Virus record (IMG/VR): IMGVR_UViG_3300007960_000033
Coordinates: 1 to 52,365 of that record
Source of the DNA: a virus
Reading direction: 5' to 3' (one strand)
Length of the DNA stretch: 52,365 nucleotides
How positions within the stretch are numbered: the stretch's first letter is position 1; every line of letters starts with the position of its first letter. Below the pieces are notes generated by a model that did no database searches, was not told where the DNA came from, and saw nothing but the letters and a program-made list of their open reading frames with translations. Shown here one piece after another: positions 6,069-27,863 of the stretch. Position numbers and translations under genes: made by a program.

Positions 6069-9000
6069 ATGGAAAAAGTAACTCTCAACAGCCTTGTACA
6101 TAATATAGTTCCAGATTATGTTTTAGAACAATATCCTCTTCTTATTGAATTTTTAAGAGAATATTATAAATCACAAGAAACTTCTGGAAATTCTTTAGAT
6201 ATTATACAAAATCTAAGTGACTATGTAAATATTGATAATATTACTAACCTAATAGAAAGTACTTCTTTATATTCTAATGTAACTTATTATGATAAAGAAA
6301 TATATGTAGATAGTATTAGAGGATTTTCTTCAAATCAAGGATTAGTTAAGATTGGATCAGAAGTTATATACTATGAAAATGCCATTTCTCTTCCTGATGT
6401 AGATTTTTTAGCAAGAATTGAACCAGGATTAAAAGAATTAAATAGTCTAGAAGCGGAAGATTTAAATACTTTACTCGGATGGTATGTAAAAGTTTATAAT
6501 CTTAGTGGTAAACTTATTAGTGAAGGTAAAATAGTAAGCTTGGCGGAAGGTGGAAATAGTGTTAATGTAGATTTTACTCCTATAGTTTCTGATGAAATTG
6601 ATGGGTATGAAAGATCTGAGCTTTATAGATGTGTTGTAAAAAGATCCAAATTTTCTGATTGCAAAAGAGGATTTTCTGCAATAACTGGACTAAGAAACAA
6701 TAAAGATACGAATAGACTTATTTTTGAAGAGACTAATGCGTCTAAACATGTAGTTGGAGATAAAGTATTAAACTTAAATATTATTTTACTAAAAGAGTTT
6801 TTTAATAAAATAAAAGTTCAAATATCTCCTGGATTTGAAAACGAAACTTTTTATTCTACACTAAATGAATCGACTTTTGTTAAGAATATAAGACAGTTTT
6901 ATCTTGCAAAAGGATCAGAGTGTTCTTTTGACCTTCTTTTTAAAGCTATTTTTGGAAAACCAGTAGATATTGTCATTCCAAGCAATAATCTAATAGAACC
7001 TTCTAGCTCTAGATACACTATTACAAAAAACGTTGTAGTAGAGTTATTAGAAGGAGATATTGAATCTTTACAAAATAGAACATTATATCAAGATGAGCAG
7101 TTTAATATTCCTCAAACAAGAGGAATTATAACAAAAGTTGAAACACTACAAAGAGATGATAAGAACTTTTATACTCTTTACATAGACAGTTCGGTAGAAG
7201 AAAACTATGATTCTACTTATGGAAACTTTACTATACATCCCAAAACAAAAAATATTCAAAAAATATCAAAACTACAAAACTTTATTGATGTCGATTCAAC
7301 TATTGGATTTCCATTAAGTGGAACTTTGATTATAAAAGATGTTGATGGATTTGATCGTAAAATACAATATGGTTCAAAAACATCTACACAGTTTTTAAAC
7401 TGTACTAATGTCCTTTATGATTTTGAACTAGGATCAGATGTTTACTTAGATGTTTTTGCATATGTAAGAACATCTAAAAATCCAACTAAAGTAAGAATAA
7501 CAGGAGTTCTTGATAATGACATAAACCTTTCAAATCTTGGAATCAAATATCTGAAAAAAGGTGATGTTTTACCATATAAAACACTTGGAATAGATTTAGA
7601 AAATGATCCAAGAACAAATTGCTGGATTTATAACATCTCTAAAGATTATGATGTCAAATCTATAGTTTTAGTTGATGAAAAAGATTTTACATATACGGTT
7701 GTTTTATATGACAAGCATGATTTTTCTGTTGGACAAGGTATTAAACTTTTTCCAAACATTGGATTTGTAACCTTTAATGGTAATGTAATAGAATATATTA
7801 ATGAATATTCTGTTTCTGTCAGGGGAACAAGAGTTTTATTGGATCCAAATGTAAAATATACTTTACAAAAAAAGGTTAATAAATCAAACTTTAATGGGAT
7901 AACTAGTTATCCATCAGATGTTCAAAATACTTATTATGATAAAGAAACCAAAGATGTTTATGTAAACTCTCAATCGTTGCCTCTTTATAGACCATCATTC
8001 GAAGTTGAAGAACTAAACGTAAATAAGAGAACTAGATCTTTTTCAGGAAATTTTGATAATGATACTCTTATTGATATTGGTAAGCATGGTTTTTATACTG
8101 GAGATGCTGTAGTATATAAACCAAGGGTTATAGCATATGTACCAAAATATGTGATTGAGTCAAATGGTGTTACAAGCTATAAGTTTATAAATCCAGAAAA
8201 TGGTGAGTATGAAAATAATCCTACTTTAACTTTAATAAGAGGAAAAACATATACATTTTCTAATTTTACAGGAATACATCCTCTTAGGATTCAAGAAGAA
8301 AGAAATGGAGTTATTTCAGATCAATATAATAACGGTATTAAAAATAACGATGTTTCTAATGGAATATTATATTGGGAAGTTCAAGAAGATACACCAGATG
8401 TATTATATTATCAATGCCTAAAACATCTATCGATGGGTGGAGTTATTAATATTATTGATGAATCTCAGCAACAAAATTTAAATATTAATAAGGGAATATA
8501 TTATGTTAAAAGAATAACCGATAGAACAATACAACTTTATTCAAGTAGATCTAACATTTATACAAATAAGCCCGTTTTATTAACGGGAACAGTAAATGGA
8601 GATACTATTGAATCTTACGATTACACATATAAAAACTTTGATACTAGAAATATAGATCCTCAAGATATTATAAGAAAGATTCCATTATCACCAAAACATA
8701 ATCATACTAATAATAGTATGATGAGAAAAATGACAAAACCAGGTACAACTGGTATTTGGAGAAATGGAATTGAGGTCTTAAACTATAAATCTAAAGATTT
8801 TTTCAAGTATGGAAAAATAGAATCTGTTGATATACTTTCTAAAGGATCTGGATATGACGTTATTAATATTCCAGCAATAAAAATAACAGATTTAAAAGGA
8901 TCTGGATGTTCTGCTACAGCTTCTGTTAAAGGATATTTAAAGTCTATTGAGGTAATAGATTCTGGTTTTGATTATAAAGATGTTCCTGTCATAAAAATAT

Positions 9001-12000
9001 CTGGTGGAAATGGATTTGGCGCATCTGTTAAAGTTAATCTTGAAAAATATGAGCATTATTCAGTATTTGATTCTTCATCAATAGATGTTTCCTCCGATAT
9101 TATTGGATTTTCAACTTATCATAAGTTTAAAAATGGAGAACTAGTAAAATATGATCCTCAGGGACAAAAGGCTGTTGGTGGCATTACTACATCTGGATAT
9201 TATTATGTCTCTATAGTAGATCCTTGGAATATAAAGTTGCATAGATCTGAAAAATCAGCATCTTCTGGAATAGGAACAATAAATCTATCGCAATTTGGAA
9301 TAGGAAAACATAAACTTATATCAAGTACTAAAAAGAATAGAGTTAAGAACATAGAAGTTCTAAATCGTGGTAGTGGATACGAGACAAAGTTTAGATCTTG
9401 TTCTTCATCTGGAATCAGTACATTCAAAAATACAATAACTATAAACAATCATGGATATGAAAGTGGAGAAATAGTATCTTATAATCCAACAGTATCTCCA
9501 GTTTCTGGACTTTCTTCATCTACTGATTATTATGTACTAAAAGTTGATAATAATAGTTTTAGGTTATGTGAAATATCAGGAATTTCTACCCAAAAGGATA
9601 TTTTTTATAAACAAAAAAAATATATAAGATTTTCTGGATCTCCTACAGGAGAACATAATTTTAAATACCAAGATATTGAAGTAACAATAGAAGGAAGATC
9701 ATCATTAAACTTTACAGATTTAAATGCAGAGACTGGAGCTGTTATTAGACCCATTTTTAGTGGTGAAATTGATTCAATATTTGTAAAAGATGGTGGATCA
9801 AAATATGGTTCTGATATTATTAATTTTGATTCTCAACCAAATATAGAAATACTTCAGGGAAGAAATGCGAGATTAAAACCAGTTGTCAGTGAAGGAAAAA
9901 TTGTAACTGTTATAATAGAAAATCCTGGTAAAGATTATTATTCTATTCCTGAAATTAATGTTATTGGTTCTGGTGTTCAAGCTGTATTACTTCCAGTAAT
10001 AGAAAATGGATTTATTGTAGATGTTATAATACAAAATCCAGGGATTGGATATTCTAAAGATTCAACTAAACTAGTAGTTTCCAATAGAGGAAAAAATGCA
10101 TCATTAAGAGCGAATATTCAAAAATGGACTATAAATCTGGTTGAAAAGTATATAAACTCACAATTAGTATCACCAGAAGATGCTTTTCTATATGAAGGAA
10201 AAGATAAGAGAAGAGGTATTGAATTTGTTCATACTTATGCTCCAAGAAAACTTAGACAGATTTCTTTAGCACAAAGATTTTTAAATGGGCAAGTAACATA
10301 TAATCCAGATTTAGAGCTTATTAATGGAACTGAGTCAGAGTCTCTTTCACATTCTCCAATACTTGGATGGGCTTATGACGGAAATCCTATTTATGGTCCA
10401 TACGGATTTTCTTCTAGAACTGGCGGAAAAATAATCCAGATGAAGTCTGGATATTCCCTCAGAAGTGATTTAAATAAAGATAAAAATAGATTAGATTTAA
10501 ATTTATATCCAGCAGGATTTTTTATCGAAGATTATATTTTTAATGACTCTGGTGATTTGGATGTACATAATGGCAGATACACAATAACTCCAGAATATCC
10601 TAATGGAACATATGCATATTTTTGTACTTTAAATACTTTTTCTGATACTAATGGACCATTTAAGTCATATAAAAAACCGTCTTTTCCTTATGTTATTGGA
10701 AATTATTATGTTTCAGATCCAATAGATTTTAACTTTAGTCCTTTTTCAAACTTAAGTGATTACAATCTTGATAATAGTAATTTATTGAGAAATACAAATC
10801 CATATAACTTTGATTACAAAAATACCAGATATCCATATTTAAAATACGATAGATCTTATAGAAATCAAAATGCTATTGTAAAGTCTACAACTTTTGGAAA
10901 TATTAATAGTATTGGAATAGTAACTGGAGGTTTTGATTATAAAGTTGGAGATAGAGTAGTATTTGAAAGTCAGATAGATTCATTTAGAGCAAAAGCAGAA
11001 GTATCTAAAGTAAGAGGTGAAGAAGTATCTTCTATTGAAGTTATTTCTGATGATACAAAAACTTGTGATATTATAAAAGTAAATAATAGATTTGTTGGAT
11101 TTACTTCAGATCCTCATGGATTTACTAATAGAGAAGTATTAAGTTTATCATTTAACAATAATAAACTAACAACATCTCCTATAAAAGTTGATTATAATAT
11201 TGTTACTTTAAAAGAATCTTTACCAGAAGTTTCTTCGACTGGTATTGTTACATATATTTCTGTCATTACTAATTTTGAAAATATTTATGCGGATGATGTA
11301 TATGAATCAAATGGAGAAAAGTTTAAAGTATTAAAAATAGATTCTCCAAATTCTAGACTACTTGTGCAGAGAGAATATTTAAATTCTATTGGAACATCAC
11401 ACGTATTATCTTCTGGATTAGTGGAAGATTCTAGAAGGTTTGAGTTATCAATACAAAATAGTTTTGTAACTGAGTTTACAAATAAATATCAAAATTCAAT
11501 TTATATTGAACCTTCACTTGATGTTGGTATTGGAACAATAACCATCAATATAACAAATCATAACTTAAATACTGGAGATATTTTAGATTATTCTTTTGAG
11601 GGAGGTTCTTCTATTATTTCTAATGGATTCTCACTTTCAGATGCTCCAGAAATATTTGTTTCTAGAATAAATTCAAATACTATTGGATTGACCACCACTT
11701 TATCTGGAATATCAACAAATCCACAACTATTAGTATTTGATAGTGTTGGTATTGGTTCTGTTCATAAGTTCACTCCAATATATCAAAATAAACTAAGATG
11801 TAATATATTTGATGATAGAATAAAGGTAACAACAACTACTCCACATGGATTAAATGTTGGTGATTCTTTTGAAGTTAAAGTAGTTAGTGGAATAACAACA
11901 ACATTTAAAGTTGAATACAATAGAGAAAATAGAAGAGTTATTATTGGAAGAAGAGATTTTCCATCTTCTGACGTAAACGTTCTAGAAAACTATATTACTT

Positions 12001-15000
12001 TACCAAATCACAAGTTTTATTCTGGACAAGTTGTAATATACAAAACTAACTCTATATTACCAACTGGATTAATAAACAATCAAATATATTATGTTTCTGT
12101 AATAAACAAAGATAGAATAAAATTATGCCAAACCCAGTATGATGCGAACATCGGTTTAAATGCGGTAAACATTACAGATGCTGTTTCTGGATCTATTTTA
12201 CCAGTTAATCCTCCATTAGAAATATATCAGTATTCAGAAGTAGTTTTTGATTTATCAGACTCTTCCTTGTCAATAAATGAACTTAGATCTAGAGAATCTT
12301 TTGATTTTAGATTATATTGGGATCATCATTTAATGCATGAGTATTTTACTTCAGCAACTAGAAAGGAGTTTAATGTTTTATATCAAGGATCTATTGGAGT
12401 AAGTAGTGATGCTTCTGTAAGATTGAGAAATGTAAAAGATTTGCCATCTGAACTTTATTACAATTTATCTCCAAGAAATGTATTTGGAAATGATAAGGAA
12501 GTTGTTGAGTTATTTGTAGATACACAGGCAAATACTGGTGGTTATCACCATAATTCTATTAACATGCTTGAAAGCAAGTTTAATGGTAAATATGTAGTTA
12601 ATGATGTTACATTAACATCTTTTTCTGCACCTCTAGTAAAAAATCCAGAGTTTTCTAAATATCAAAAACAGACAGGAACATCTATTGAATATTATTTGGA
12701 TACTAAAAATGCTTCTGGTAAAATTGCTGATGTAAAAATTCAATCTTATGGAGAAGGATATAAGAAGATACCAAAAATAATCGATATATCTTCTGAAAAT
12801 GGTTATGGGGCAATATTAAAAGTAAACTCAGATAATATTGGACAACCAGTTAATATAGATTTTGACAACATTGGATTTGATTATTATTCTGATAATACTC
12901 TTAGACCAACATCACAAGTTCCTACAATATTAGAGCTTGACTATAAATCTTCGGTAGAAAGTATAGAAGTTATAAATCCAGGTAAAAGGTATTCATTACC
13001 ACCAGATATTATTGTAATAGATGGATTTACCAATAAAGTTTTAGATGATCTAGAGTTTTCTTATGATATTGTTAGAAGAAAGGTCGATATTATAAAAAAT
13101 ACTTATAATATATCCGAATATCCTTCAAGAATACTTACAATCAATAATACCAATGGTATTGGTATCAATACAATAACTTACAATAATGAAAATAAGCATG
13201 TTACTGTTGAAATAAACTCATCTTATAGTACATTAAATGAATTTCCATTTAATATTGGAGATAAATTTTTGATTGAAAATGTAAGTGTTGGTGTAGGAAC
13301 AACTGGTAAGGGATATAACTCAGAAAACTATAACTATACATTATTTGAAGTTATAGATAGTGATCCAAAACTTGGTGGTGTTGGAGCAACTGTAACATAT
13401 AGCTTAGAAGGACTTATTAATGTAGACGAGTATCCTGGAGATTATAATGTCTTCAACTCTTCTGGAAAAATAGTTCCAGAAAGTTATTTACCTCAGTTTA
13501 AATTAACTAAATTTAAAACCAAGTTTTTACCTCAAGAAGAAGTTATCTCTGAGTTAGGTTCCAGAGGAAAAATATTGAGTATTGATTATGAAAGAGACTT
13601 AATAAGAATTTCTACTTTTGATAAGTTTAATATTGGAGATGATTTGAAAGGATTGACATCTGGAAGAAGATCAAAAGTTATTAATGCTATTGATTCAGAA
13701 ATTGAATTTCCAGTTTCTGCTGGTTCTATTGTCAGAAATGGATGGTCAACTAAAAAAGGATTCTTAAATGATGACACACAAAGAATTCATGATAGTGATT
13801 ATTATCAGTATTTTTCATATTCTGTAAAATCTGAAGTTGATTACGAAAGATGGAATCCTTATGTAAAAAATCTTACTCATACTGTTGGATTTAAGAGATT
13901 TAGTGATTTATTAGTCCCATCAGAACCAGAAGAGTTTATTGGAATTAATACAGAACAAAATTCTGGAAATATTAGTGGAATAGCAGATATTTATCAAGTG
14001 GTTGATATTGATTGCTATAGTGATTTTGACACTTCTACAGAATCTTTAAGAGTAATAAATGAGTCTAGAAAATCAAAAGAAATACAACTCAAATCTAAAC
14101 TATTACAAGATTATGTTGAATCAATAGGAAATAGAGTTTTAAGTATTGATGATATTTCCCCACAATTTAATCAAGAGATACGAGCTACTAGATATTCTGA
14201 TATAGATTCTTATACAAGAACTGTAGGATTTAGAAAATATTTTGTAGTTGTTGAAAATATTGATAATCCAGTTGAAAGACAATCTGGAATTGTATTATTA
14301 CTTTCTGATGGTTTAAATGTTTTTAATGTTGATTACGGTAAAACAATTCCAAAGAATAATGATCTTGGTGATTTTGATGCAGAAATTTCTGGTACTGATG
14401 TTATTTTAAGATTTTTCCCAGATGAATATAAAATATCAAATTATTATGTGTTTGCAACATCATTAGAACTTGATACAAATATTATAGGAGTTGGATCATT
14501 ACCAATATTAGGTGATGCAGTTTCTATGTATTCTGAACAGAAACACAATATTGGAATCGGTAACACTGAAATATTAAGACTTCCTTTATCAAATACCTCC
14601 AATAAACTTATAATACATGTATCTGCAGATAATGGATATGTACAAACTGATGAGATTATAATAACAAGTGATGGAAATGATATTTATTTAAATGAATATG
14701 GATTCCTCAATAGTTCTGGAGGAAGTTCAAATAGTACTCCAGGAATCGCAACATTTAGTTATTCTATAGATGGATCCGAAATTGTAGTTTTAACTGATAT
14801 TGATACACCAAATGCAACATCTTTTAATGTAGATACTTCTGTAACTACATTTTCATCTAATGCTATTGGAGTTGGGACAGCATCAATAAATGGCGCTTTA
14901 CTTGAAACATCATACAAATCTATTTCATCATCTCCATCACCATCTGCTGTAGGAATATCTTCGTTTGGACCAAGATATGATGCTGCATATGTTTTAGCTT

Positions 15001-18000
15001 CTGTTCAAGATTTGACAAATGGAACTCATTTTTATACAGAATTTGTTGTTATGTCATCTTGGAATAAATCTATTGAATATGTTAATGGAATGGTGGCAAG
15101 TGGAACAGACATTGGGATTGGAACTTTTGGAGCTTCGTCTGATGGAAGCTTCTGTACAATAGAGTTTACTCCAGAACCAGATATAAATGTAGATGTAAGA
15201 ATGTTCCAGTTTAATATTGGATATTATGATGATTTGATTGAACCAGAAGAAATCATTGATTTAGGAAATATGAAGATTGATTCTGGATGGGGAGAATATG
15301 TTGGTACAGATTTGAGTATAAGAAAATCATTTGATTTATATCATAAAGAACAACCATTATTCCAAAAAATAGTTAATCCAACATTACAAGAAACTTTTAA
15401 CTTTGATGATAATATTTTAAATGTTCCTGGACATTATTTTGTTACTGGAGAAGAGTTGGATTATAAATATAGATTCTCAGATTTTTCCAGCGATAATGCT
15501 ATTTCTATTGCATCAACAACAGTTCCTGGAATAGGAGTTACTGACAAACTTCCAACAACAGTTTATGCCGTTAGAGTTGATAATCTTAGTATTAAATTGG
15601 CAGCTACAGCAGAAGACGCATTAGCATTTACACCAAAAGTTTTTGAGTTTACTTCTTTAGGAATAACAACAGATCATTATTTAACATGTAAAAAACAAAA
15701 TACAAGAGCTCTAATATCTTTAGACAATATTATTCAAGCACCTGTAGTTTCTTCATCAACAACATCAACCTTAGCAATAGAATCTACTCCATTTAATGCT
15801 ATTCTAGAGTTTAGCGATGTATCTGGATTCGCTGGTGGTGATTTAGTTCAAATTGATGATGAGATTATGAGAATATTTGTCATCGGATTTAACGACAATC
15901 CAAATAATGTCTATACAACTAGAGGTTTTATTGGTACTAAGAGAGCTTCACATTCTTCTGGATCTATTGTTACTAAAGTTACTGCTAACTATAATATTGT
16001 TGATAATACTGTTTATTTTCCAGAAGCTCCTTTTGGAAACGTTCAGTTTGAAAATCCATTAAACAAACCAGATGAAGTTGATTATTTTGGATTAGATGTA
16101 AGATCTAAGTTTAATGGAAGAGTTTTTATGAGGTCATCTCAAGAGGGAGGATCTCAAGATCCATACTATAATAACTTTATTTTAGATACTATAAGTGATA
16201 AATTTACAGGATTTGATACTGATTTTGTATTGAAAAGTTTTGGGGGAAATATTACTGGTATTGCATCTCAACATGCTGCAATACTCATCAATAATGTATT
16301 CCAAATTCCAACTGCAACATTTGTAGATGGAAACTATGATATGCTTGAAAATGGTGGAGAAACAACGATTAAATTTGTTGGTTATAATACAAGTAGATAT
16401 TATGATATAAACATGTCTGGATTACCCAGAGGGGGAATGATTCTTTCTATTGGATCATCTGAAGGTTTGGGTTATCAGCCATTAGTTTCTGCTGGTGGAA
16501 CAGCAATAATATCACCATCAGGATCTATTTCAAATATTTCAATTGGAAATTCTGGATCTGGATATAGATCTGGCATACAAACTTCTATTAAAATTGGAAT
16601 AAAAACAGAATCTTTATCTAAACATGTTGAATATATTGGATTTGCAACATCTTATAATGGTTCTATAGTTTCTATCGCAATAACTAATCCTGGAACTGGT
16701 TATACAGCATCAAATCCACCCATAGTTGTTTTTGATGATCCTTTCCCATATCACAATATACCTTTACAATATCAGCCTCCATATACTGGTGTTGGTACTG
16801 AAGCTTATATCGATCTTGTTGTTGGAAATGATTCTAGTGTTATTAGTTATGAAATAAAGAACTATGGTTATGGTTTTGCAATAAGAGATATTTTAACATT
16901 ACCAACTGGAGGAGAAACTGGAATACCAACAACATCTGAATATGGTTCTTTTGAAAACTTTAGTATTATTGTAGATTCTGTATATACTGATGATTTCTCT
17001 GGTTGGCATTTTGGAGAACTTCAACCTATCGATTCTATTAACAATCTTATTGATGGTGTTAGAAGATTTTTCCCAATATCTATTGATGGTCAGCAAACGA
17101 CTATTAGATCTAAACAAGGTTCTGAGATTGACGTACAATCCACATTATTAGTGTTTGTCAATGATATATTACAAGTTCCTGGAGAAGGATATGTATTTGA
17201 AAATGGAAGTATTATAGAGTTTCCAAATCCTTTAGAAGTTGGTAGTAAAGTTTCTATTCTATTTTATAGAGGAAGTGGAGATATTGATACAAAAGATGTT
17301 AATATTTTAGAACCAGTTGAAAAGGGAGATATGTTAATCATTGAAAGTGATGACCCATTATATGAACAAAATCAAAGGCAGATATCAGATATTGTAAATA
17401 CAAATACAGTAGAAACTAATGCTTACTCTGGTCCAGGATTAGATAAAAGTGAATCTATTATTAGACCAATAAAGCTCTGCTTACAAAAAAATGATATTTC
17501 TGTAAATGGAGAATATATTGGAAAATCTAGATCTATCTATGAACCATATATTTTACCAGTTGCAAGATTGATTCATCCAGTTGATGTAAACTCGACAGAT
17601 GTTTATGTTGATAATGTTAAGATTTGTTTTGATGATTTAAGAGAATATTCTGAGAATAAGAGTTTACAACAGTCTATTAGCATAGTTTCTCAAGATATCT
17701 TAGTATCAGCAGCTGCTACAGCAGTTGTATCTGCTGCTGGAACTATTTCATCCATTGTGTTTAGTAATACTGGACTTGGTTATACATCTGGACCAAGGGT
17801 AATAGTACCAAATCCTCCAGTATCATCTTTTATTGATCAAAATGATTTTTATACCAACCAAACTATTATAACAACAACAGTTTCTAATGGATCAATAGAT
17901 TCATTTAATATAATATCTTCTGGAACTGGGTATACTTCAACAAACCCACCATATGTCATTATTGATCCACCAGTTTCAGTTGCAGAAGATATTGTAAATG

Positions 18001-18533
18001 TAACATATAAAGGTGATTTTGGACATATTGTTAGAATCAATAAGTCTAATTCCACTACAATGGACTTTGATTTATTTGTTCCGCCAGATTCTTATCTTAG
18101 AAATATAGATGTTTCTGTAGGTATTGCAACTACTGGATTGTCTTCTATAGAGACTGGAGATTATTTTGTTGTTAGAGATACAAATATTGGTAATGGAGTA
18201 ATATCTAAAGATTCTTTGGGATCTGTAGTTTCCATTGGAAATTCTTTTATAGATAATGTTTATATTGTAGTAGCAAAAACAACATCACAACTAGATATTC
18301 CTGGAATAGGTATTACTGATGTGACTAGGGTTGAAGTTAAGATAGATAGTTCTAATACTGTTCCTCTTGGCATTACTACTGGATTCTGTGGAACTTATAG
18401 TTGGGGTAAGATTAGTAACCTTGGAAGAAGATTGCCCAAGTCATTTAATGTTCCTACTGGTAGATTATCGGGAATAAATACATCACCTGTTATTATGAGA
18501 AAAAATCGTCTAGATTTTAAATCATACTTATAA
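6069..18533 (+). CDS. Giant repeat-rich baseplate/tail protein, 4154 aa, with cupredoxin-like and YHYH domains
   Basis: This occupies the place of T4 gp7 but is about four times longer. The N-terminal ~330 residues look like a wedge-type domain (SLVHNIVPDYVLEQYPLL; FVKNIRQFYLAKGSECSF). Residues about 717-800 resemble a cupredoxin: H737 and C783-x2-H786-x2-M789 could form a type-1 copper site. A YHYH-like domain (GWAYDGNPIYGPYG, about 1432-1445; PEYPNGTYAYFCT) follows. Two repeat classes fill much of the rest: H-G/x-F-xx-G-D/E-x-V-x-Y units ending YYV...IKL (near 673, 1017, 1127, 1831, 1980, 3121) and GSGY/GTGY units (near 917, 1237, 1317, 2217, 3488, 3535, 3895, 3945). It is uninterrupted over 12.5 kb. 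It probably forms the outer baseplate or fibre scaffold. Assignment as the gp7 equivalent is by position. Confidence 0.85.
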   Translation: MEKVTLNSLVHNIVPDYVLEQYPLLIEFLREYYKSQETSGNSLDIIQNLSDYVNIDNITNLIESTSLYSNVTYYDKEIYVDSIRGFSSNQGLVKIGSEVIYYENAISLPDVDFLARIEPGLKELNSLEAEDLNTLLGWYVKVYNLSGKLISEGKIVSLAEGGNSVNVDFTPIVSDEIDGYERSELYRCVVKRSKFSDCKRGFSAITGLRNNKDTNRLIFEETNASKHVVGDKVLNLNIILLKEFFNKIKVQISPGFENETFYSTLNESTFVKNIRQFYLAKGSECSFDLLFKAIFGKPVDIVIPSNNLIEPSSSRYTITKNVVVELLEGDIESLQNRTLYQDEQFNIPQTRGIITKVETLQRDDKNFYTLYIDSSVEENYDSTYGNFTIHPKTKNIQKISKLQNFIDVDSTIGFPLSGTLIIKDVDGFDRKIQYGSKTSTQFLNCTNVLYDFELGSDVYLDVFAYVRTSKNPTKVRITGVLDNDINLSNLGIKYLKKGDVLPYKTLGIDLENDPRTNCWIYNISKDYDVKSIVLVDEKDFTYTVVLYDKHDFSVGQGIKLFPNIGFVTFNGNVIEYINEYSVSVRGTRVLLDPNVKYTLQKKVNKSNFNGITSYPSDVQNTYYDKETKDVYVNSQSLPLYRPSFEVEELNVNKRTRSFSGNFDNDTLIDIGKHGFYTGDAVVYKPRVIAYVPKYVIESNGVTSYKFINPENGEYENNPTLTLIRGKTYTFSNFTGIHPLRIQEERNGVISDQYNNGIKNNDVSNGILYWEVQEDTPDVLYYQCLKHLSMGGVINIIDESQQQNLNINKGIYYVKRITDRTIQLYSSRSNIYTNKPVLLTGTVNGDTIESYDYTYKNFDTRNIDPQDIIRKIPLSPKHNHTNNSMMRKMTKPGTTGIWRNGIEVLNYKSKDFFKYGKIESVDILSKGSGYDVINIPAIKITDLKGSGCSATASVKGYLKSIEVIDSGFDYKDVPVIKISGGNGFGASVKVNLEKYEHYSVFDSSSIDVSSDIIGFSTYHKFKNGELVKYDPQGQKAVGGITTSGYYYVSIVDPWNIKLHRSEKSASSGIGTINLSQFGIGKHKLISSTKKNRVKNIEVLNRGSGYETKFRSCSSSGISTFKNTITINNHGYESGEIVSYNPTVSPVSGLSSSTDYYVLKVDNNSFRLCEISGISTQKDIFYKQKKYIRFSGSPTGEHNFKYQDIEVTIEGRSSLNFTDLNAETGAVIRPIFSGEIDSIFVKDGGSKYGSDIINFDSQPNIEILQGRNARLKPVVSEGKIVTVIIENPGKDYYSIPEINVIGSGVQAVLLPVIENGFIVDVIIQNPGIGYSKDSTKLVVSNRGKNASLRANIQKWTINLVEKYINSQLVSPEDAFLYEGKDKRRGIEFVHTYAPRKLRQISLAQRFLNGQVTYNPDLELINGTESESLSHSPILGWAYDGNPIYGPYGFSSRTGGKIIQMKSGYSLRSDLNKDKNRLDLNLYPAGFFIEDYIFNDSGDLDVHNGRYTITPEYPNGTYAYFCTLNTFSDTNGPFKSYKKPSFPYVIGNYYVSDPIDFNFSPFSNLSDYNLDNSNLLRNTNPYNFDYKNTRYPYLKYDRSYRNQNAIVKSTTFGNINSIGIVTGGFDYKVGDRVVFESQIDSFRAKAEVSKVRGEEVSSIEVISDDTKTCDIIKVNNRFVGFTSDPHGFTNREVLSLSFNNNKLTTSPIKVDYNIVTLKESLPEVSSTGIVTYISVITNFENIYADDVYESNGEKFKVLKIDSPNSRLLVQREYLNSIGTSHVLSSGLVEDSRRFELSIQNSFVTEFTNKYQNSIYIEPSLDVGIGTITINITNHNLNTGDILDYSFEGGSSIISNGFSLSDAPEIFVSRINSNTIGLTTTLSGISTNPQLLVFDSVGIGSVHKFTPIYQNKLRCNIFDDRIKVTTTTPHGLNVGDSFEVKVVSGITTTFKVEYNRENRRVIIGRRDFPSSDVNVLENYITLPNHKFYSGQVVIYKTNSILPTGLINNQIYYVSVINKDRIKLCQTQYDANIGLNAVNITDAVSGSILPVNPPLEIYQYSEVVFDLSDSSLSINELRSRESFDFRLYWDHHLMHEYFTSATRKEFNVLYQGSIGVSSDASVRLRNVKDLPSELYYNLSPRNVFGNDKEVVELFVDTQANTGGYHHNSINMLESKFNGKYVVNDVTLTSFSAPLVKNPEFSKYQKQTGTSIEYYLDTKNASGKIADVKIQSYGEGYKKIPKIIDISSENGYGAILKVNSDNIGQPVNIDFDNIGFDYYSDNTLRPTSQVPTILELDYKSSVESIEVINPGKRYSLPPDIIVIDGFTNKVLDDLEFSYDIVRRKVDIIKNTYNISEYPSRILTINNTNGIGINTITYNNENKHVTVEINSSYSTLNEFPFNIGDKFLIENVSVGVGTTGKGYNSENYNYTLFEVIDSDPKLGGVGATVTYSLEGLINVDEYPGDYNVFNSSGKIVPESYLPQFKLTKFKTKFLPQEEVISELGSRGKILSIDYERDLIRISTFDKFNIGDDLKGLTSGRRSKVINAIDSEIEFPVSAGSIVRNGWSTKKGFLNDDTQRIHDSDYYQYFSYSVKSEVDYERWNPYVKNLTHTVGFKRFSDLLVPSEPEEFIGINTEQNSGNISGIADIYQVVDIDCYSDFDTSTESLRVINESRKSKEIQLKSKLLQDYVESIGNRVLSIDDISPQFNQEIRATRYSDIDSYTRTVGFRKYFVVVENIDNPVERQSGIVLLLSDGLNVFNVDYGKTIPKNNDLGDFDAEISGTDVILRFFPDEYKISNYYVFATSLELDTNIIGVGSLPILGDAVSMYSEQKHNIGIGNTEILRLPLSNTSNKLIIHVSADNGYVQTDEIIITSDGNDIYLNEYGFLNSSGGSSNSTPGIATFSYSIDGSEIVVLTDIDTPNATSFNVDTSVTTFSSNAIGVGTASINGALLETSYKSISSSPSPSAVGISSFGPRYDAAYVLASVQDLTNGTHFYTEFVVMSSWNKSIEYVNGMVASGTDIGIGTFGASSDGSFCTIEFTPEPDINVDVRMFQFNIGYYDDLIEPEEIIDLGNMKIDSGWGEYVGTDLSIRKSFDLYHKEQPLFQKIVNPTLQETFNFDDNILNVPGHYFVTGEELDYKYRFSDFSSDNAISIASTTVPGIGVTDKLPTTVYAVRVDNLSIKLAATAEDALAFTPKVFEFTSLGITTDHYLTCKKQNTRALISLDNIIQAPVVSSSTTSTLAIESTPFNAILEFSDVSGFAGGDLVQIDDEIMRIFVIGFNDNPNNVYTTRGFIGTKRASHSSGSIVTKVTANYNIVDNTVYFPEAPFGNVQFENPLNKPDEVDYFGLDVRSKFNGRVFMRSSQEGGSQDPYYNNFILDTISDKFTGFDTDFVLKSFGGNITGIASQHAAILINNVFQIPTATFVDGNYDMLENGGETTIKFVGYNTSRYYDINMSGLPRGGMILSIGSSEGLGYQPLVSAGGTAIISPSGSISNISIGNSGSGYRSGIQTSIKIGIKTESLSKHVEYIGFATSYNGSIVSIAITNPGTGYTASNPPIVVFDDPFPYHNIPLQYQPPYTGVGTEAYIDLVVGNDSSVISYEIKNYGYGFAIRDILTLPTGGETGIPTTSEYGSFENFSIIVDSVYTDDFSGWHFGELQPIDSINNLIDGVRRFFPISIDGQQTTIRSKQGSEIDVQSTLLVFVNDILQVPGEGYVFENGSIIEFPNPLEVGSKVSILFYRGSGDIDTKDVNILEPVEKGDMLIIESDDPLYEQNQRQISDIVNTNTVETNAYSGPGLDKSESIIRPIKLCLQKNDISVNGEYIGKSRSIYEPYILPVARLIHPVDVNSTDVYVDNVKICFDDLREYSENKSLQQSISIVSQDILVSAAATAVVSAAGTISSIVFSNTGLGYTSGPRVIVPNPPVSSFIDQNDFYTNQTIITTTVSNGSIDSFNIISSGTGYTSTNPPYVIIDPPVSVAEDIVNVTYKGDFGHIVRINKSNSTTMDFDLFVPPDSYLRNIDVSVGIATTGLSSIETGDYFVVRDTNIGNGVISKDSLGSVVSIGNSFIDNVYIVVAKTTSQLDIPGIGITDVTRVEVKIDSSNTVPLGITTGFCGTYSWGKISNLGRRLPKSFNVPTGRLSGINTSPVIMRKNRLDFKSYL

Positions 18534-18560: not shown

Positions 18561-20135
18561 ATGTCAGCAATCATAACTGATCAATTAAGAATACTTAATG
18601 TTAATAACTTTATTAACAATATTGCTATATCTTCAAATACTTATTATGCATTCATCGGTCTTCCAAATGCAACCGATTATGATTCAGAATGGGATTTGAA
18701 TCCACCATCACCAAAAGATTGTTTTGATGATGAAAATGACTATTGGGATACTATAACAGCTTTAAAAAAAATAAATCCATCAGATGTAAAAAGAGTTATA
18801 AGAAAAGTAACTTGGGAATCTGGATTTACTTATGACATGTATAGACATGATATAAGCAGAACAAATTTATCTCAACCATCTCAAGCAACTAGTTTATATT
18901 ATTCCAACTATTATGTTGTAAATAAAGATTATAAAGTTTATATTTGTATTCATAATGGAACTGATGAAAATAATCTAGAAGGAAAACCATCTTTGGATGA
19001 ACCAGTTTTTACTGATTTAGAACCAAAACCAGCTGGAAATAGTAATGATGGTTATCTTTGGAAATACTTATACACAATATCTCCATCAGATATTATAAAG
19101 TTTGATGGTGTTGATTATATTCCTGTTCCAGATAATTGGGGAGAAGATGAAGCAACTGCAACTATTAAGCTTCATGCAGAAACTAGTGGGCAGTTAAAAA
19201 ATATTGTAATTAAAGATAGTGGATCTAATATAGGACCAGCTAATCAAGTTTACAACAGAGTTCCTATAAAGGGAGATGGTTATGGTGCTGAAGCAACAAT
19301 AATAATAGATGGAGAATCTAAGTTAGATTCTGTTATTATTACAAATGGTGGTTCTGGATATACATACGGAGTAGTAGACTTTGCATCTGGAGGTGTTCCT
19401 ACAACAGAGATTGGATATAGAGAACCTATTGTAGATGTCATTATTCCACCTAAAGGTGGACATGGTTATGATATTTATAGAGAGCTTGGTACAACTAGGG
19501 TATTGGTTTATTGTAGAATAGAAAATGATCTTCAAAATCCAGATTTTGTTTTAGGGAATCAGGTTGCAAGATTTGGAATAGTAGAAAATCCGCAAAAATA
19601 TGGAAGTAGTGATATTTTAAATGATGATAAAGTTAGTGCCGTACATGCATTAAAACTTATAGGAAATATTTCTGATGGAAGATATGAACCAGATAGTATT
19701 ATAATGCAAAATGTTTCTATTGGAGTTACTGCTGTAGGAAGAGTTGTTTCTTATGATGAAAACACAGGTATTCTAAAGTATTGGCAAGATAGAACCCTTT
19801 ATGGATTTAACTATGATAAAACTAGAGATTATAGTCCACAATATGGGTATGGAAAAGTAAACTTTACTTCTGAACCTGGAGCTGGAGGAAATACTTTAAT
19901 AACAGGAACAATATCAGCATTAGAGATTGATACTGATTTTGGAACACAATCAAATCCTGGTATTACAACTGTAATAAATAATAGAACATATAGTTTGGGA
20001 CAAGAGTTTCAAAGAGGAATCTCCAATCCAGAAGTTAAAAAATACTCTGGAAATATAATATACGTTGATAATAGACCTTCTATTACAAGATCTCAAAACC
20101 AAAAAGAAGATATTAAAGTAATTTTGCAATTTTAA
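18561..20135 (+). CDS. 8: Baseplate wedge subunit gp8, enlarged
   Basis: The ends match T4 gp8: the N-terminal half has the gp8 pattern of a Trp-Asp-rich loop, a VIRKVTWESG strand, an NYYVVNKDYKVYICI segment and GNSNDGYLWKYLYTISPSD (T4 has GDGYVWEYLFEIPP). The C-terminus YVDNRPSITRSQNQKEDIKV parallels T4 YMENRPPIIMAMDQTEEINI. At 524 aa it is about 190 longer than T4 gp8. Part of the excess is an insertion around 200-280 containing GDGYGAEATIIIDG and NGGSGYTYG units, the same repeat class as in the giant protein. Gp8 dimers connect the wedge arms to gp10 and gp7 in T4. Confidence 0.88.
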   Translation: MSAIITDQLRILNVNNFINNIAISSNTYYAFIGLPNATDYDSEWDLNPPSPKDCFDDENDYWDTITALKKINPSDVKRVIRKVTWESGFTYDMYRHDISRTNLSQPSQATSLYYSNYYVVNKDYKVYICIHNGTDENNLEGKPSLDEPVFTDLEPKPAGNSNDGYLWKYLYTISPSDIIKFDGVDYIPVPDNWGEDEATATIKLHAETSGQLKNIVIKDSGSNIGPANQVYNRVPIKGDGYGAEATIIIDGESKLDSVIITNGGSGYTYGVVDFASGGVPTTEIGYREPIVDVIIPPKGGHGYDIYRELGTTRVLVYCRIENDLQNPDFVLGNQVARFGIVENPQKYGSSDILNDDKVSAVHALKLIGNISDGRYEPDSIIMQNVSIGVTAVGRVVSYDENTGILKYWQDRTLYGFNYDKTRDYSPQYGYGKVNFTSEPGAGGNTLITGTISALEIDTDFGTQSNPGITTVINNRTYSLGQEFQRGISNPEVKKYSGNIIYVDNRPSITRSQNQKEDIKVILQF

Positions 20136-20141
20136 AGAATT

Positions 20142-23100
20142 ATGCCATCAAAAACAAATCTCAACGTTTTTCCATATTTTGATGACTTTGACGAAGATAA
20201 AAACTACTATAAAGTCTTATTTAAACCTGGATATCCTATCCAAGCTAGAGAGTTATCAAATGTTCAATCAATTTTACAAAATCAAATTGAACAGTTCGGA
20301 AATCATGTATTTAAAGAAGGTTCTGTAGTAATCCCAGGAAACATTAGTTTTACAAGAATAGTTGGTGTAGAGGTAGAAAATACATTTAATGCCATAAATG
20401 TAGACGAATATATTAATGATTCTAAACTATATGGTTTTGTTATTGTAGGAAAGGAGACTGGTTTAAGAGCAAAGGTTGTAAAAGTTTTAAGGAAAAAAGA
20501 TTATAATGATTTAAATAATACTATTGTATATTTCCAATATTTAAATACTGGATCTAATAATGAAACTGATTTTCTTCCTGGAGAAACATTAATTTCTGAA
20601 TCTGAAATACTACCAATATTAAAAAGGGGAACTACTTCAACTACTCGTATTAATGTATCGACACAGAGTAGTACAGATATTTATGGTGATACAACAACTC
20701 AGGAAACTTTTGTATCTGCAAATAGATCTAATAATATATCTGGTCAATATCAATATTCTAATATTAGTGTTATTGATGATATTACGATTAGATCTGGACA
20801 AGAGTTTTTATTAGTAAAAAATCCAGTAATTGGTGCTGCTGCTATAATCAGTGAAGGGGTATATTTTTTAAGAGGTAACTTTGTAAATGTAAATGAAGAG
20901 TTATTAGTAGTAGATAGATTTAACTTTTTAACAAGTTGTAGAATAGGATTACGTATTAAAGAAGAAATCATTTCTTCTGATAATGATCCAACATTATTTG
21001 ATAACTCTAGAGGGTTCTCAAACTATTCAGCTCCAGGTGCAGACAGATTAAAGATTAGTGCCAGTCTTGCATCATTACCTATTGATGATGATCAATCTGA
21101 TGATTTTGTAGAATTAACTAGAGTTGAAGAAGGAAATATTATATTTTTAAATAGAAATCCAGAATACAATGAGATTGGTAATGAGTTAGCAAGAAGAACT
21201 TATGATGAATCTGGAGATTATTATATTAAACCTTTTAGTGTAAGTGTTGAAGAATCTTTAAATGATCTTGAGGGAAGTAGAGGTCTTTATAAAGAAACAG
21301 AGTTAACGAGACAACAAAACACTCCTTCCGAAAGTATGGGAGTTTATAAAATATCCCCAGGAAAAGCTTATGTTAAGGGATATGAAATAGAAAGATTATC
21401 TAGTACATTATTAGATTTTGAAAAACCAAGAACGACAAAAATACTAAAAGATCAGTCTATTCAATACTCTACAGGATCTTCATATACATTAAATAGAGTA
21501 TATGGAACACCAGAAATTGGAATATCAACATACACAGTTTCTTTAAGAGATTCTAGATTGGGGGCATCAGACTTAGAATCTTCAGGAAAAGAAATTGGAA
21601 TATCAAGAGTTTATGATTTTGCTTTAGAATCTGGTTCATATAATATTATAAACTTAGATTTAAATGAATGGGATATAAACTTATATGATACAGATTTTTA
21701 TACAGAAATTACTTTAAATGAACCAATAACTGTATCTTCTCCATCAAAGATCGAAGGTAGATATACTGGATCATATGGATATCTAAGATTTAATGCTACA
21801 AATTCAGGAATAATCACTGCATATAGTAGTTTTGGAAAATATTCTATTGGAGAAAAAATATCTTTCTCTGACGGCCAAACTAGAATTGTAAAGAGTATTA
21901 GAAAGTATGGATCTGATGATGTAAAATCAATATTTGGTCAATCTGGAATATCAACATTTAATGCTGATGTAAAGCAAAATAGAAAAGTTTTTGTAGGCGG
22001 AGCAGTTATTCAAGCAGAATCTTCTGGGGTATCAACTGTAACTAGTACAAATATTGATTTTGGATCAATTTGTGAAGATGGAGATATTATATCTTATACT
22101 TTGGGAGAAAATGTAGTTCCAAACTTTGCTAAAATTTCTTTAGTAAATACTAATAGTATTGTTATACAACCAGTTACTTCTGTAGCGGATATTTGTATAG
22201 GAAACTTGCCTGGAATAACAACATCTGTACAAAACTTACAAATATTAACGACAGTATTAACATCTCCAGATTCAAATCTATATACAAAGATTCCTAAGCA
22301 AAGTATTGAATCTGTAGATTTAACAAATTCTAGAATATCTATAAGAAAAGAATATGACGTAACCATTTCAAGTAATGGATTTAATATTGCAGCATCAACT
22401 TTAAACTCAAATGAAGTTTTTCAGCCATATGATGAAGAGAGATATTCTTTAGTACTGACTAATGGATCTATTGTACCTTTGGAGAGAGGTAATTTTGCAT
22501 TTTCAAATGGAGGAAGAGAACTTACTCTAAGTAATCTTAATGTTATTAGCGGAAATGCTAGATTTATAACAAGTTTATATAAAACAAACGTAAAATCAAG
22601 AAAAAAAGTAAACAAACTAGAATCTGTAGTAATCAATAAATCAGCATTACAAGAATCTGGTATCAATAATGTAAGTATCGGAGCAACAACACTTAATGAT
22701 GGTTTAACATATGGAAATTATGCATATGGAACAAGAGTTCAAGATCAAGAAATATCATTAAACTATCCAGATGTTGTTAAAATTTATGGTATTTTTGAAT
22801 CTAGAAATAGTGAAGATCCTATTCTGCCAAAAATATCTTTAACTAATATTATAACAAGAGAGGAATCTCCATCAACTACAAATGCGGTTAGAGTTGGAGA
22901 AAAGCTTTATGGTGAAGAGTCTGAAGCAGTATTTATTTGTGTTTCTATTGTAAACTCTTCAACTATTGAAGTTATTCCAGTAAATAGTAAAGTACCTATT
23001 TCTGGAGAAACTTTAAGATTTAAATCTACAGGAGCAAAAGGCACAGTAGTCAACTATGTTGCAACTCAAAGTGAAAATATTACCAACAGATATAGATTAA

Positions 23101-26100
23101 ACTCTGGGGAAACAAATCAAGTTTATTCATATTCTTTTATTAAAAGAGTAGAGAATTCAGCTCCTCCTGTTAGAAAAATAAAAGTAGTTTATGAAAGACT
23201 TTACATACCTGAAGATGATTTGGGAGATATTATTTGTGTAAATTCATATTCTAATATTTCTAGAAATCAAATTGGTCAATTGACAAATAATATTGATAAA
23301 GCAGATATTATTGATATAAGACCTATTGTTGATAAATTTGATGTTATTCAAGGGACTAGATCTCCATTTGAGTTTTTAGGAAGAAGGTTTAGTTCAGATG
23401 GTAATTCTTCTTCAAACATATTTGTTTCTGATGAAGATATTTTATTAGATTATGCATTTTATCTAGGAAGAACTGATAGAATTTTCTTAGATATTAATGA
23501 GCAAATTATTATCAAGCAAGGAACTCCATCAGAATCTTTTGATCCACCAGAAGCTCCAGCAAATGCTATAGAAATAGCATCTATTAACTTAAAACCATAT
23601 TCAAAAAATCTTAAAGAAACAACAGATATAAGATTATTAAAATATAAGAGATATCGCATGTCAGATATCTCTAATTTAGAAAAAAGGATTAAAAACTTAG
23701 AATATTATACAACTTTAAATATTTTAGAGCAATCTACATCTTCATTATCAGTTAAAGATGAAAATGGACTAGAAAGATTTAAATCTGGATTTTTTGTAGA
23801 TGATTTTTCAAATAGAAATAATCAATATATTGTTCCTGGAAAGATTACTAACTCAATAGATCCAGTAAAAAGGGAACTTAGACCTTCAGCATATACCACT
23901 GAACTAGATTTGACCATAGCAACTACTAATAACTATGGAGTCACTAAATCTCCCACAATATCTCCAGTAAAAGGAATATCTAGATCAGAATATGATAACG
24001 TAAAATATGCAACTGCTGAATCTATTATTGGAAATAATGTTCAAATAACTGGTGGTGGAGGAGCAAGATTTGAAAATACTGGTAAAGGACTTTTAACTCT
24101 CGCTTATAATGAACAAATAAGAATAAGACAATCTTATTCTACAAGAGTTGTAAATGTTACTCCATATTTAGTAACTAACTATTATGGTCAGGTTGATTTA
24201 AATCCATCATCAGACATTTGGAGTGAAGAAACTATATTAGAACCCTTGATTATTACTGGTATTGAAGGTAGACTTATTGAAGAAGATGTTAGTTTTACTG
24301 CTGAAGAGTTTGCATCTCAAGATGGATTCGATCCAGTTGCTTGGGGTTCTTGGCAAAATAATTGGACTGGATCTTCTGAAGCTATTATTGGAACATCTTC
24401 ACGCAGTTCAAGTTGGAGTGGTCAATCTGGAAATACTGTATGGGGTGGTACTACTACAACTTTTGGAAACATAGTTCAAACAACCTTAACAGGTACTGCT
24501 AATCAAGAAGGAACTTCAACTAGAGTAACAAATCCAATTGAAGATAAAAATCTTGGAAATAGAGTTGTAAGTGCAGAATCTGCTGCTTACTTAAGATCTA
24601 GAAATATTGAGTTCATTGTTAAAAAAATGAAACCCAGTACATTATTATATGTTTTCTTTGATGATCAAGATGTAACTGCTTTATGTACTCCAAAGTTATT
24701 AGAAATTGAAATGATCGATGGAGTTTTTGAAGTAGGAGAAGATGTAATATTTTACAATGAAGATGGTAGAGAAATAGCTTTATTTAGATGTGCAGCACCA
24801 AATCATCAATTTGGTGATTTAAGTAATCCAAATGCTCAATCTTTTTATGACAGAAATCCATATGACCAAAGTGATCTTCCATTATCATATACCGAATCTT
24901 CTTCAATACTCAATTTAGATACAACATCTTCAGGAGATTATTCTTCAGGATATTATGGAAATCCTCCAATAGGATCTAGAATTGAAGGAGCTAGTAGTGG
25001 CGCTGTAGCTACAATATCAAATAAGAGAATATTTACAGATCAAGCAGGTGTTGTAATAGGATCATTATTTGTTCCAAGTCCAAATGATGAGACTAATCAA
25101 AGATTCCAAACTGGAGCAATATCATTTAAAATTTCTAATGATAGAACAATTGACGTTATTCTTGGTGTGGAAACAACAGAAGCTACTGGTCAGTTCTATT
25201 CATCAGGATTTATTACTCAAACACAAGAGACAACTATTCAAGTAAGAAATACTTTAATAGAATCTGCAACTATTAGTAGAGAAAGAGCTATTAGATCAAC
25301 TTCTAATAGATTTGTGCCGACTAATAGTGTAACTAGTACATGGTCGTTTACAGTATCTCCACCACGTCCACCAAACAGACACGATCCATTAGCACAATCA
25401 TTCTTTATTCCCAATGCGGCTGGAGTATTTGTGACTCATATGGATCTTTTCTTCCAAGCAAAATCAGAAGATCTTCCAGTTTATGTTGAACTAAGATCTA
25501 TGGAGTTGGGTCTACCTACTACTGAAGTTTATCCTTTAAGTAGAGTAGAACTATTACCAAGTCAAGTTCAAGTATCTGATGATGCTACAGTAGCAACTAG
25601 AGTAACGTTCCAAGGACCAGTTTACTTGGAAGGAAATAAAGAACATTGTATTGTACTTCTTTCTGATGTTACGGACTATTATGTTTGGATTTCTAGATTA
25701 GGTGAAACTACTTTTAATATTCAAGGAGAAGAGATAGCAATTACCACTCAAAATGAACTCGGATCACTATTTAAATCTCAAAATGGTTCTACTTGGACTC
25801 CAAGTCAATATGAAGATCTTAAGTTTACATTATATAACGCACGATTTGTTGATCAAGGAAGTGTTACTTTAGTAAATACTGATCTTTCAGAAACTAATAA
25901 TCTTTATCAAGATGCAATCAAAACATACTCTAATACATCTAGAGTATCTTTAGGAACCACTGTAACTGATACTATTCTTAAGATTGGTAATACAATCTAT
26001 CAAGAAGGAAATAATGCATCAGGAACATATTCTGGTAATGCTGGAATAGCAACAGGAAATCTATCATTTACTAATGCTGGTATTGGATATACACCATTTG

Positions 26101-27863
26101 AGATTGGAGTACCAGCATTTACTTTCGAAAATGTTCCATTGCTATCATTAACAGGAACTGGCAAAAATGCAACTGCAAATATTACTATTGATGGTGGAGT
26201 AGCTATAGCAGCAACAATCGTTAATGGTGGATCTGGGTATACTATTGGTGAAGAGTTATATGTAGATCAGTTAGGAATATCTTCTGTTGGTAGAAACCTT
26301 TTAATGTCGGTTTCTTCAATATATGCAGCAAATGAGTTATTGTTAACTAATATACAAGGAGAATTTGAGTCTTCTCCTTTAAAACCATTATATTTTACTT
26401 GTACAGATCCTGTTGTAGGATTTGGAACTACAACTCTTAATGCTATTGCAAATGGTGGAGATGGAAATCTAGTTAATATAACGTCAATTGAAAATGTACA
26501 TGATGGATTGCATATGGAGATTTCACATAAAAATCATGGAATGCATTCAAAATCTAATAGAGTTATGATATCTGGCGTTTCACCAGATAGTGCTCCAGCT
26601 ATTTTAGTTGAACCATTAACATCTACTTCAACACAAGATATAGAACTCAATACTGACGATATGTCTTTATTCGAGACTTTTGAAAATGTAGATGTATCTG
26701 CTACAAATCCTGGTTATGTTTCTGTAGGAAATGAAATTATTTCTTATACTGGTATTTCTGGAAACTTCCTAACTGGTATTGCTAGAGATGTTGATCAATC
26801 TAATATTGCTGTACCAAGAAGAACATCTGCAAATCAAAAGGTATTTAAATATGAGTATAATGGAATATCATTAAGGAGAATAAATAAAGAACATTTCTTA
26901 CAAGATTCTACTGTAAGTAATCCTATCACTCTTGATACATACACTATTAAAATTGATACTTCATCTAATGGAACTGATAGAAGTACAAGTGTTCCAGATC
27001 CAAAGCTTTACTTTAATAGCACTAAATCTGGAGGAGGTAAATCAATATATGCTTCTAAAAATATAAATTATGAAATGATTCACCCAATCATAAGTGCATT
27101 GGTATTACCAGATGCTACTTTAGAAGCAACAGTTAGAACAACAACAGGCACTAGTATTTCTGGAAATGAAGAATCATTTAGGGATGCAGGAACAGTTCCA
27201 ATCACATTAAATGAAGATAACTATTTTGATTCACCAAGGATCATTGCATCTAGAATCAATGAACTAGCTTTTTCTGATCAAATCCCAGGAAATAAATCTC
27301 TTGAGATAACACTAAATCTTTCAACAGACCAACCAGTTATTAGTCCTATTATTGATCTTGATCGTTTAGGTGCAATATTTGTATCTAATAGAGTTAATTC
27401 TCCTATAACTGATTATATTAATGATCCAAGAACTGGATCTGTATCTGATGACCCAACAGCATTTATATATCATACTAAACCTATTGAACTAGAGTTTCCT
27501 GCAACTTCATTAAGAGTTCTTGTAGAATCTTATGTAAATCAATACACAGATGTTAGAGCATTTTTTGCAATAATGAAAAATGCTTCCGAGAATCCAATCT
27601 ATTATCCTTTCCCAGGATATAGAAATAGATTAGCTTCTGGAGAAGTCATTGATATTTCTAGAAATGATGGAACTCCTGATAAACAATATAATAGGACTAG
27701 TGCTTTAAACTATTATCCTGGAGATAGTGATTTTATTGATTTGGAGTTTAATATTGACAACCTTGAACCATTTAACTTCTTCTCAATAAAACTTTTAGGA
27801 ACATCTACGAATCAGGCGTTCCCTCCAAGATTTAGAGATTTAAGAGTAATCGGGTTAGCATAA
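20142..27863 (+). CDS. DUF4815 virion structural protein, 2573 aa
   Basis: The N-terminus (NLNVFPYFDDFDEDKNYYKV, LFKPGYPIQARELSNVQSIL, then FGNHVFKEGSVVIPG) is the signature of the DUF4815 family of large cyanophage tail proteins. A second conserved block near 1160-1240 includes KRYRMSDISNLEKRIKNLEY and GLERFKSGFFVDDF. The C-terminus (NDGTPDKQYN; then RFRDLRVIGLA) is also typical. A stretch near 1960-2040 contains GIGYTPFEIG and NGGSGYTIGEELY, the GSGY repeat class shared with the giant protein, gp8 and gp14. It lies six bases after gp8, in the place of T4 gp9-gp12, and probably forms a peripheral baseplate or fibre-attachment structure. The exact role is unknown. Confidence 0.85.
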   Translation: MPSKTNLNVFPYFDDFDEDKNYYKVLFKPGYPIQARELSNVQSILQNQIEQFGNHVFKEGSVVIPGNISFTRIVGVEVENTFNAINVDEYINDSKLYGFVIVGKETGLRAKVVKVLRKKDYNDLNNTIVYFQYLNTGSNNETDFLPGETLISESEILPILKRGTTSTTRINVSTQSSTDIYGDTTTQETFVSANRSNNISGQYQYSNISVIDDITIRSGQEFLLVKNPVIGAAAIISEGVYFLRGNFVNVNEELLVVDRFNFLTSCRIGLRIKEEIISSDNDPTLFDNSRGFSNYSAPGADRLKISASLASLPIDDDQSDDFVELTRVEEGNIIFLNRNPEYNEIGNELARRTYDESGDYYIKPFSVSVEESLNDLEGSRGLYKETELTRQQNTPSESMGVYKISPGKAYVKGYEIERLSSTLLDFEKPRTTKILKDQSIQYSTGSSYTLNRVYGTPEIGISTYTVSLRDSRLGASDLESSGKEIGISRVYDFALESGSYNIINLDLNEWDINLYDTDFYTEITLNEPITVSSPSKIEGRYTGSYGYLRFNATNSGIITAYSSFGKYSIGEKISFSDGQTRIVKSIRKYGSDDVKSIFGQSGISTFNADVKQNRKVFVGGAVIQAESSGVSTVTSTNIDFGSICEDGDIISYTLGENVVPNFAKISLVNTNSIVIQPVTSVADICIGNLPGITTSVQNLQILTTVLTSPDSNLYTKIPKQSIESVDLTNSRISIRKEYDVTISSNGFNIAASTLNSNEVFQPYDEERYSLVLTNGSIVPLERGNFAFSNGGRELTLSNLNVISGNARFITSLYKTNVKSRKKVNKLESVVINKSALQESGINNVSIGATTLNDGLTYGNYAYGTRVQDQEISLNYPDVVKIYGIFESRNSEDPILPKISLTNIITREESPSTTNAVRVGEKLYGEESEAVFICVSIVNSSTIEVIPVNSKVPISGETLRFKSTGAKGTVVNYVATQSENITNRYRLNSGETNQVYSYSFIKRVENSAPPVRKIKVVYERLYIPEDDLGDIICVNSYSNISRNQIGQLTNNIDKADIIDIRPIVDKFDVIQGTRSPFEFLGRRFSSDGNSSSNIFVSDEDILLDYAFYLGRTDRIFLDINEQIIIKQGTPSESFDPPEAPANAIEIASINLKPYSKNLKETTDIRLLKYKRYRMSDISNLEKRIKNLEYYTTLNILEQSTSSLSVKDENGLERFKSGFFVDDFSNRNNQYIVPGKITNSIDPVKRELRPSAYTTELDLTIATTNNYGVTKSPTISPVKGISRSEYDNVKYATAESIIGNNVQITGGGGARFENTGKGLLTLAYNEQIRIRQSYSTRVVNVTPYLVTNYYGQVDLNPSSDIWSEETILEPLIITGIEGRLIEEDVSFTAEEFASQDGFDPVAWGSWQNNWTGSSEAIIGTSSRSSSWSGQSGNTVWGGTTTTFGNIVQTTLTGTANQEGTSTRVTNPIEDKNLGNRVVSAESAAYLRSRNIEFIVKKMKPSTLLYVFFDDQDVTALCTPKLLEIEMIDGVFEVGEDVIFYNEDGREIALFRCAAPNHQFGDLSNPNAQSFYDRNPYDQSDLPLSYTESSSILNLDTTSSGDYSSGYYGNPPIGSRIEGASSGAVATISNKRIFTDQAGVVIGSLFVPSPNDETNQRFQTGAISFKISNDRTIDVILGVETTEATGQFYSSGFITQTQETTIQVRNTLIESATISRERAIRSTSNRFVPTNSVTSTWSFTVSPPRPPNRHDPLAQSFFIPNAAGVFVTHMDLFFQAKSEDLPVYVELRSMELGLPTTEVYPLSRVELLPSQVQVSDDATVATRVTFQGPVYLEGNKEHCIVLLSDVTDYYVWISRLGETTFNIQGEEIAITTQNELGSLFKSQNGSTWTPSQYEDLKFTLYNARFVDQGSVTLVNTDLSETNNLYQDAIKTYSNTSRVSLGTTVTDTILKIGNTIYQEGNNASGTYSGNAGIATGNLSFTNAGIGYTPFEIGVPAFTFENVPLLSLTGTGKNATANITIDGGVAIAATIVNGGSGYTIGEELYVDQLGISSVGRNLLMSVSSIYAANELLLTNIQGEFESSPLKPLYFTCTDPVVGFGTTTLNAIANGGDGNLVNITSIENVHDGLHMEISHKNHGMHSKSNRVMISGVSPDSAPAILVEPLTSTSTQDIELNTDDMSLFETFENVDVSATNPGYVSVGNEIISYTGISGNFLTGIARDVDQSNIAVPRRTSANQKVFKYEYNGISLRRINKEHFLQDSTVSNPITLDTYTIKIDTSSNGTDRSTSVPDPKLYFNSTKSGGGKSIYASKNINYEMIHPIISALVLPDATLEATVRTTTGTSISGNEESFRDAGTVPITLNEDNYFDSPRIIASRINELAFSDQIPGNKSLEITLNLSTDQPVISPIIDLDRLGAIFVSNRVNSPITDYINDPRTGSVSDDPTAFIYHTKPIELEFPATSLRVLVESYVNQYTDVRAFFAIMKNASENPIYYPFPGYRNRLASGEVIDISRNDGTPDKQYNRTSALNYYPGDSDFIDLEFNIDNLEPFNFFSIKLLGTSTNQAFPPRFRDLRVIGLA

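Follow-up and report, generated by a model that had tools for sequence, protein, structure and literature searches.

Type-1 (blue) copper proteins such as amicyanin and plastocyanin (Pfam PF00127, Copper-bind) share the cupredoxin fold and a His...Cys/His/Met ligand set, and related domains are found in multicopper oxidases (CueO, McoA) and copper nitrite reductases. Cyanophages are known to encode one such protein, the PetE plastocyanin, as an auxiliary metabolic gene (PMC3037559). Metal sites have also been described in phage tail proteins: iron is bound by HxH motifs in tail fibres, as in T4 gp37 and Alteromonas phage R22Y, and a Trojan-horse hypothesis has been put forward for it (PMC11705849). 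In the open-access papers searched, whose restricted scope makes this only weak evidence of novelty, we found no mention of a cupredoxin domain in a phage virion protein.

Here we report that a giant baseplate protein of a marine T4-like phage carries an inserted domain with the predicted fold and the four candidate metal-binding residues of blue copper proteins. The same module recurs in baseplate and tail-fibre proteins of hundreds of cyanophages, so their virions may carry copper, although no metal has been measured. The sequence analysed, referred to below as the window, is a whole virus record of 52,365 bp (IMGVR_UViG_3300007960_000033).

Results

The carrier protein is a gp7 orthologue

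The window contains an ORF of 4154 aa whose strand, length and residue numbering agree with the initial annotation, which had proposed a putative type-1 copper site in a phage tail protein. The features relevant to this work are as follows.

6069..18533 (+), giant ORF (4154 aa), gp7 orthologue, T4-type baseplate wedge initiator
8130..8480 (+), inserted segment (about residues 688-804) relative to gp7 orthologues without the domain
8145..8459 (+), predicted cupredoxin domain, residues 693-797
8277..8279 (+), H737, first His ligand candidate (HP motif)
8415..8417 (+), C783, Cys ligand candidate
8424..8426 (+), H786, second His ligand candidate
8433..8435 (+), M789, Met ligand candidate

The giant ORF was identified as gp7 by its match to phrog_2885 ("baseplate wedge subunit") at 2871 bits, by tblastn to annotated gp7 of S-SM2, Bellamy, P-TIM68 and others, and by its position: PHROG matches gave the order gp25, gp6, the giant ORF, gp8, a 2573-aa ORF, then neck and sheath genes. 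No gp9 gene was seen between gp8 and the neck genes (18561-28243), where only the 2573-aa ORF (phrog_358, DUF4815) and a 75-aa ORF are present; as the record is probably a fragment, gp9 may lie elsewhere. The capsid protein is about 74-76% identical to those of marine T4-like phages, mostly cyanophages, so a cyanobacterial host is likely but not shown.

Residues 693-797 are predicted to form a complete cupredoxin domain

C-x2-H-x2-M occurs once in the 4154 aa, whereas composition alone predicts about 0.001 occurrences. The initial annotation, which had placed the site at 8217-8460, cut off the first strands of the domain: the domain profile matches 8145-8459 (1.4e-43). Single-sequence searches were not conclusive. 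A phmmer search of the domain against the PDB gave no hit, NCBIfam gave nothing, and Pfam matches for the window's own copy were below the curated cut-offs. In contrast, a profile built from 45 relatives hit copper nitrite reductase (3.9e-5), amicyanin (1.2e-4) and plastocyanin (1.5e-4) first, with C-x2-H-x2-M in register with amicyanin; the hits to these proteins, at 4e-5 to 4e-4, are modest but all of one kind. The first His is one or two columns off in this alignment because HP replaces PHN.

AlphaFold2 modelled the domain with pLDDT 93.6 and pTM 0.86, and the listed best PDB matches in a Foldseek search were essentially all cupredoxins or proteins built from them. In the strand order of the model H737 (model position 51) stands just before a strand, C783 (97) ends the next-to-last strand, and H786 (100) and M789 (103) lie in the loop before the last strand. 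This is the type-1 copper topology, although the agreement is one of strand order and not of measured ligand distances. The result is not a habit of the method, since a second domain of the same ORF modelled in the same way matched nothing. That region is a YHYH domain (PF14240, 3.6e-22) at 10338-10634 (gp7 residues 1424-1522), aligned in 70 gp7 orthologue loci; the segment modelled, 10221-10778, gave pLDDT 89 and pTM 0.83, yet no PDB fold (best E 0.66) or sequence matched, which possibly indicates an undescribed fold.

The four candidate ligands are conserved and lost together

All four residues are kept in 105 of 111 distinct viral copies and in 33 of 33 distinct copies on bacterial contigs. 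Among 84 clusters at 80% identity, with a mean pairwise identity of 42%, 78 keep all four, six keep two, one or none, and none keeps exactly three. Taken singly, H737 is conserved in 55 of 60 viral clusters, C783 and H786 each in 54 of 60 and M789 in 57 of 60, while each is conserved in 24 of 24 bacterial clusters, although some of the bacterial contigs look phage-derived. Shuffling the losses between sequences never reproduced this joint pattern in 200,000 trials. That test treats clusters as independent, but a tree, many forks of which are weak, needs six separate losses. Four of the six degenerate copies share their ORF with an intact copy. As the first viral sample had been picked by a pattern that includes the Cys, a second was picked by YNDGITNN, a motif that holds none of the ligands, and 35 of about 38 complete copies in it keep all four. 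The residues therefore behave as one functional unit, as a metal site would. Homologues with the fold but without the ligands exist but are rare, and the possibility raised in the initial annotation of a relic retaining only the fold is disfavoured for this copy.

The domain is an insertion, and gp7 acquired cupredoxins at least twice

Six gp7 orthologues from annotated phages were compared. Five clearly lack the domain, with about 24 residues in place of 117 in S-SM2, and in the sixth (marine virus AG-345-E02) the domain profile finds nothing in the record. Four close relatives (loci L010-L013), about 63-65% identical over the compared gp7, and a fifth (L014, 56%) keep it. In 80 further gp7 orthologues from IMG/VR the profile finds no domain at this site, and where the flanks could be read the loop is mostly 17-62 aa. 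Five of those 80 (loci L205, L218, L227, L242 and L250) carry a cupredoxin of another subfamily (YRFD-SDSSN-GHP...KYNCSNHNGMG) at a different gp7 position, near window residues 400-406, again with all four ligands kept as HP...C-x2-H-x2-M. So gp7 took up cupredoxins at least twice, independently. The gp7 copies of the window type form one clade among phage copies. Between close relatives dN/dS in the domain is about 0.06; the figures for the gp7 flanks were spoilt, probably by an indel, and were not used. Base composition of the insert does not differ from that of its flanks, so there is no sign of recent transfer.

Related copies occur in other phage structural proteins and in bacteria

A tblastn search found related stretches in 321 phage records, all named Synechococcus, Prochlorococcus, cyanophage or marine virus. 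Related copies lie in cyanophage gp9, a long tail fibre proximal subunit, a tail spike, other fibre or baseplate proteins, and a protein of the podovirus P-GSP1. In S-SSM5 gp9 (locus L008, 2080-3306) and other cyanophage gp9, the tail-fibre connector, this same module forms the C-terminus, and phrog_677 includes it. P-SSM2 has four copies, whereas S-SM2 and SynMITS9220M01 have none detectable. Fold matches among predicted viral proteins are again mostly cyanophage tail, fibre and baseplate proteins, but small beta-sandwich proteins of giant viruses (BFVD A0A481Z6J5, A0A481Z7Q7 and A0A481YXP1, from Pithovirus and Marseillevirus relatives) also match the cupredoxin model (E about 1e-6 to 1e-5). 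In bacteria the domain sits at the end of probable lipoproteins of marine Flavobacteriaceae (contigs L104, L097, L100 and others), with Lipoprotein_15 repeats or CHRD domains and with no Pfam family called over it at cut-off, and in small proteins of other groups.

Discussion

We consider it most likely, with a probability of roughly 0.6, that residues 693-797 of this gp7 are a complete cupredoxin domain that binds one metal ion, probably copper, through H737, C783, H786 and M789, and that the domain was inserted into a loop of the baseplate wedge protein as an exposed decoration or adhesion module. The predicted fold, the four-residue set, its joint conservation and the insertion are supported by computation. 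In the absence of any metal measurement, copper occupancy remains an inference, as do the proposals that the metal, probably taken up after lysis because the virion is assembled in the copper-poor cytoplasm, rigidifies a small beta-sandwich on the virion surface and that the module helps the particle touch or hold the cell surface. A location on the outside of the baseplate is inferred from the gp7 assignment, and the adhesion role rests on location and modularity only. Against this view, six clusters have lost the site while the domain remains, so the fold does not depend on metal, and some cyanophages have no detectable copy, so the module is dispensable.

Other explanations appear less likely. 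The domain could be a fold-only spacer or adhesin whose four residues no longer bind metal in the virion and persist by descent or for structure. The persistence of degenerate copies in phage proteins is consistent with this, but the retention of the complete set at 42% mean identity, in independent insertions and in bacterial relatives, makes it improbable. A working redox centre exchanging electrons with a host surface or periplasmic partner, for example as a trigger for adsorption, is likewise less favoured but remains open. The complete ligand set, the amicyanin-length loop and the usual role of type-1 sites in electron transfer would suit it, yet no redox partner gene or docking surface was identified, and the spread of copies over many unrelated carriers and attachment points suits a self-contained module better than a fixed redox relay; the evidence does not require electron transfer.

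Still less likely, though also open, is a metal lure or scavenger, in which copper on the particle engages a host copper-uptake protein or the module protects the particle from copper. The iron Trojan-horse idea (PMC11705849) and the frequency of the module in marine phages lend it some support, but no link to copper uptake or resistance genes was found and the iron sites are chemically different. An unrelated beta-sandwich with a chance His/Cys/His/Met arrangement, which only the failure of the single-sequence searches would favour, is contradicted by the fold search, the profile search, the ligand conservation and the joint loss. A disulphide role for C783 was rejected because it is the only Cys in the domain, and a CuA site because it would normally require two. 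It remains a speculative and improbable possibility that virions of a large share of marine T4-like cyanophages are copper proteins in which a mobile type-1 module in baseplate and fibre proteins uses bound copper actively, as a redox trigger or to engage host surface proteins during adsorption. If copper is bound, hundreds of sequenced cyanophages, and probably many uncultured ones, carry type-1 copper sites on their particles. The data also show a ligand-complete predicted cupredoxin shuffled as a module among phage structural proteins and shared with probable bacterial surface lipoproteins.

Comparison with known metal-binding proteins

The fold and the type of site are known; their presence, ligand-complete, in T4-like baseplate and fibre proteins was not found in the open-access literature searched. 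With amicyanin and plastocyanin the domain shares the predicted cupredoxin fold, the His...Cys/His/Met set and, with amicyanin, the length of the C-x2-H-x2-M loop. It differs in being part of a virion protein rather than a free periplasmic or lumenal electron carrier, in the HP motif that holds its first His, and in scoring below the Pfam cut-off: neither PF00127 nor PF13473 (Cupredoxin_1) is listed for the window's copy, and only 9 and 3 of 45 relatives, respectively, match at E<=0.01. The closest Pfam model by number of members is PF25489 (At5g54830-like domain), matched by 22 of 45 over the Cys/His/Met end, but it too is below the curated cut-off for the window's copy and comes from a plant protein context. 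Multicopper oxidases and copper nitrite reductases are matched in fold, and the HPF-I stretch appears to resemble an HPFH-I motif of the type-1 domain of multicopper oxidases, but here there is one domain only, with no trinuclear or type-2 copper ligands and no oxidase architecture. The PetE plastocyanin is likewise a cupredoxin encoded by cyanophages, but it is a separate photosynthesis protein and not part of the virion. The nearest precedent is the HxH iron of tail fibres (PMC11705849), a metal site built into a phage tail protein of marine relevance, in which the sites are His-only and octahedral rather than a Cys/His/Met site within one cupredoxin domain.
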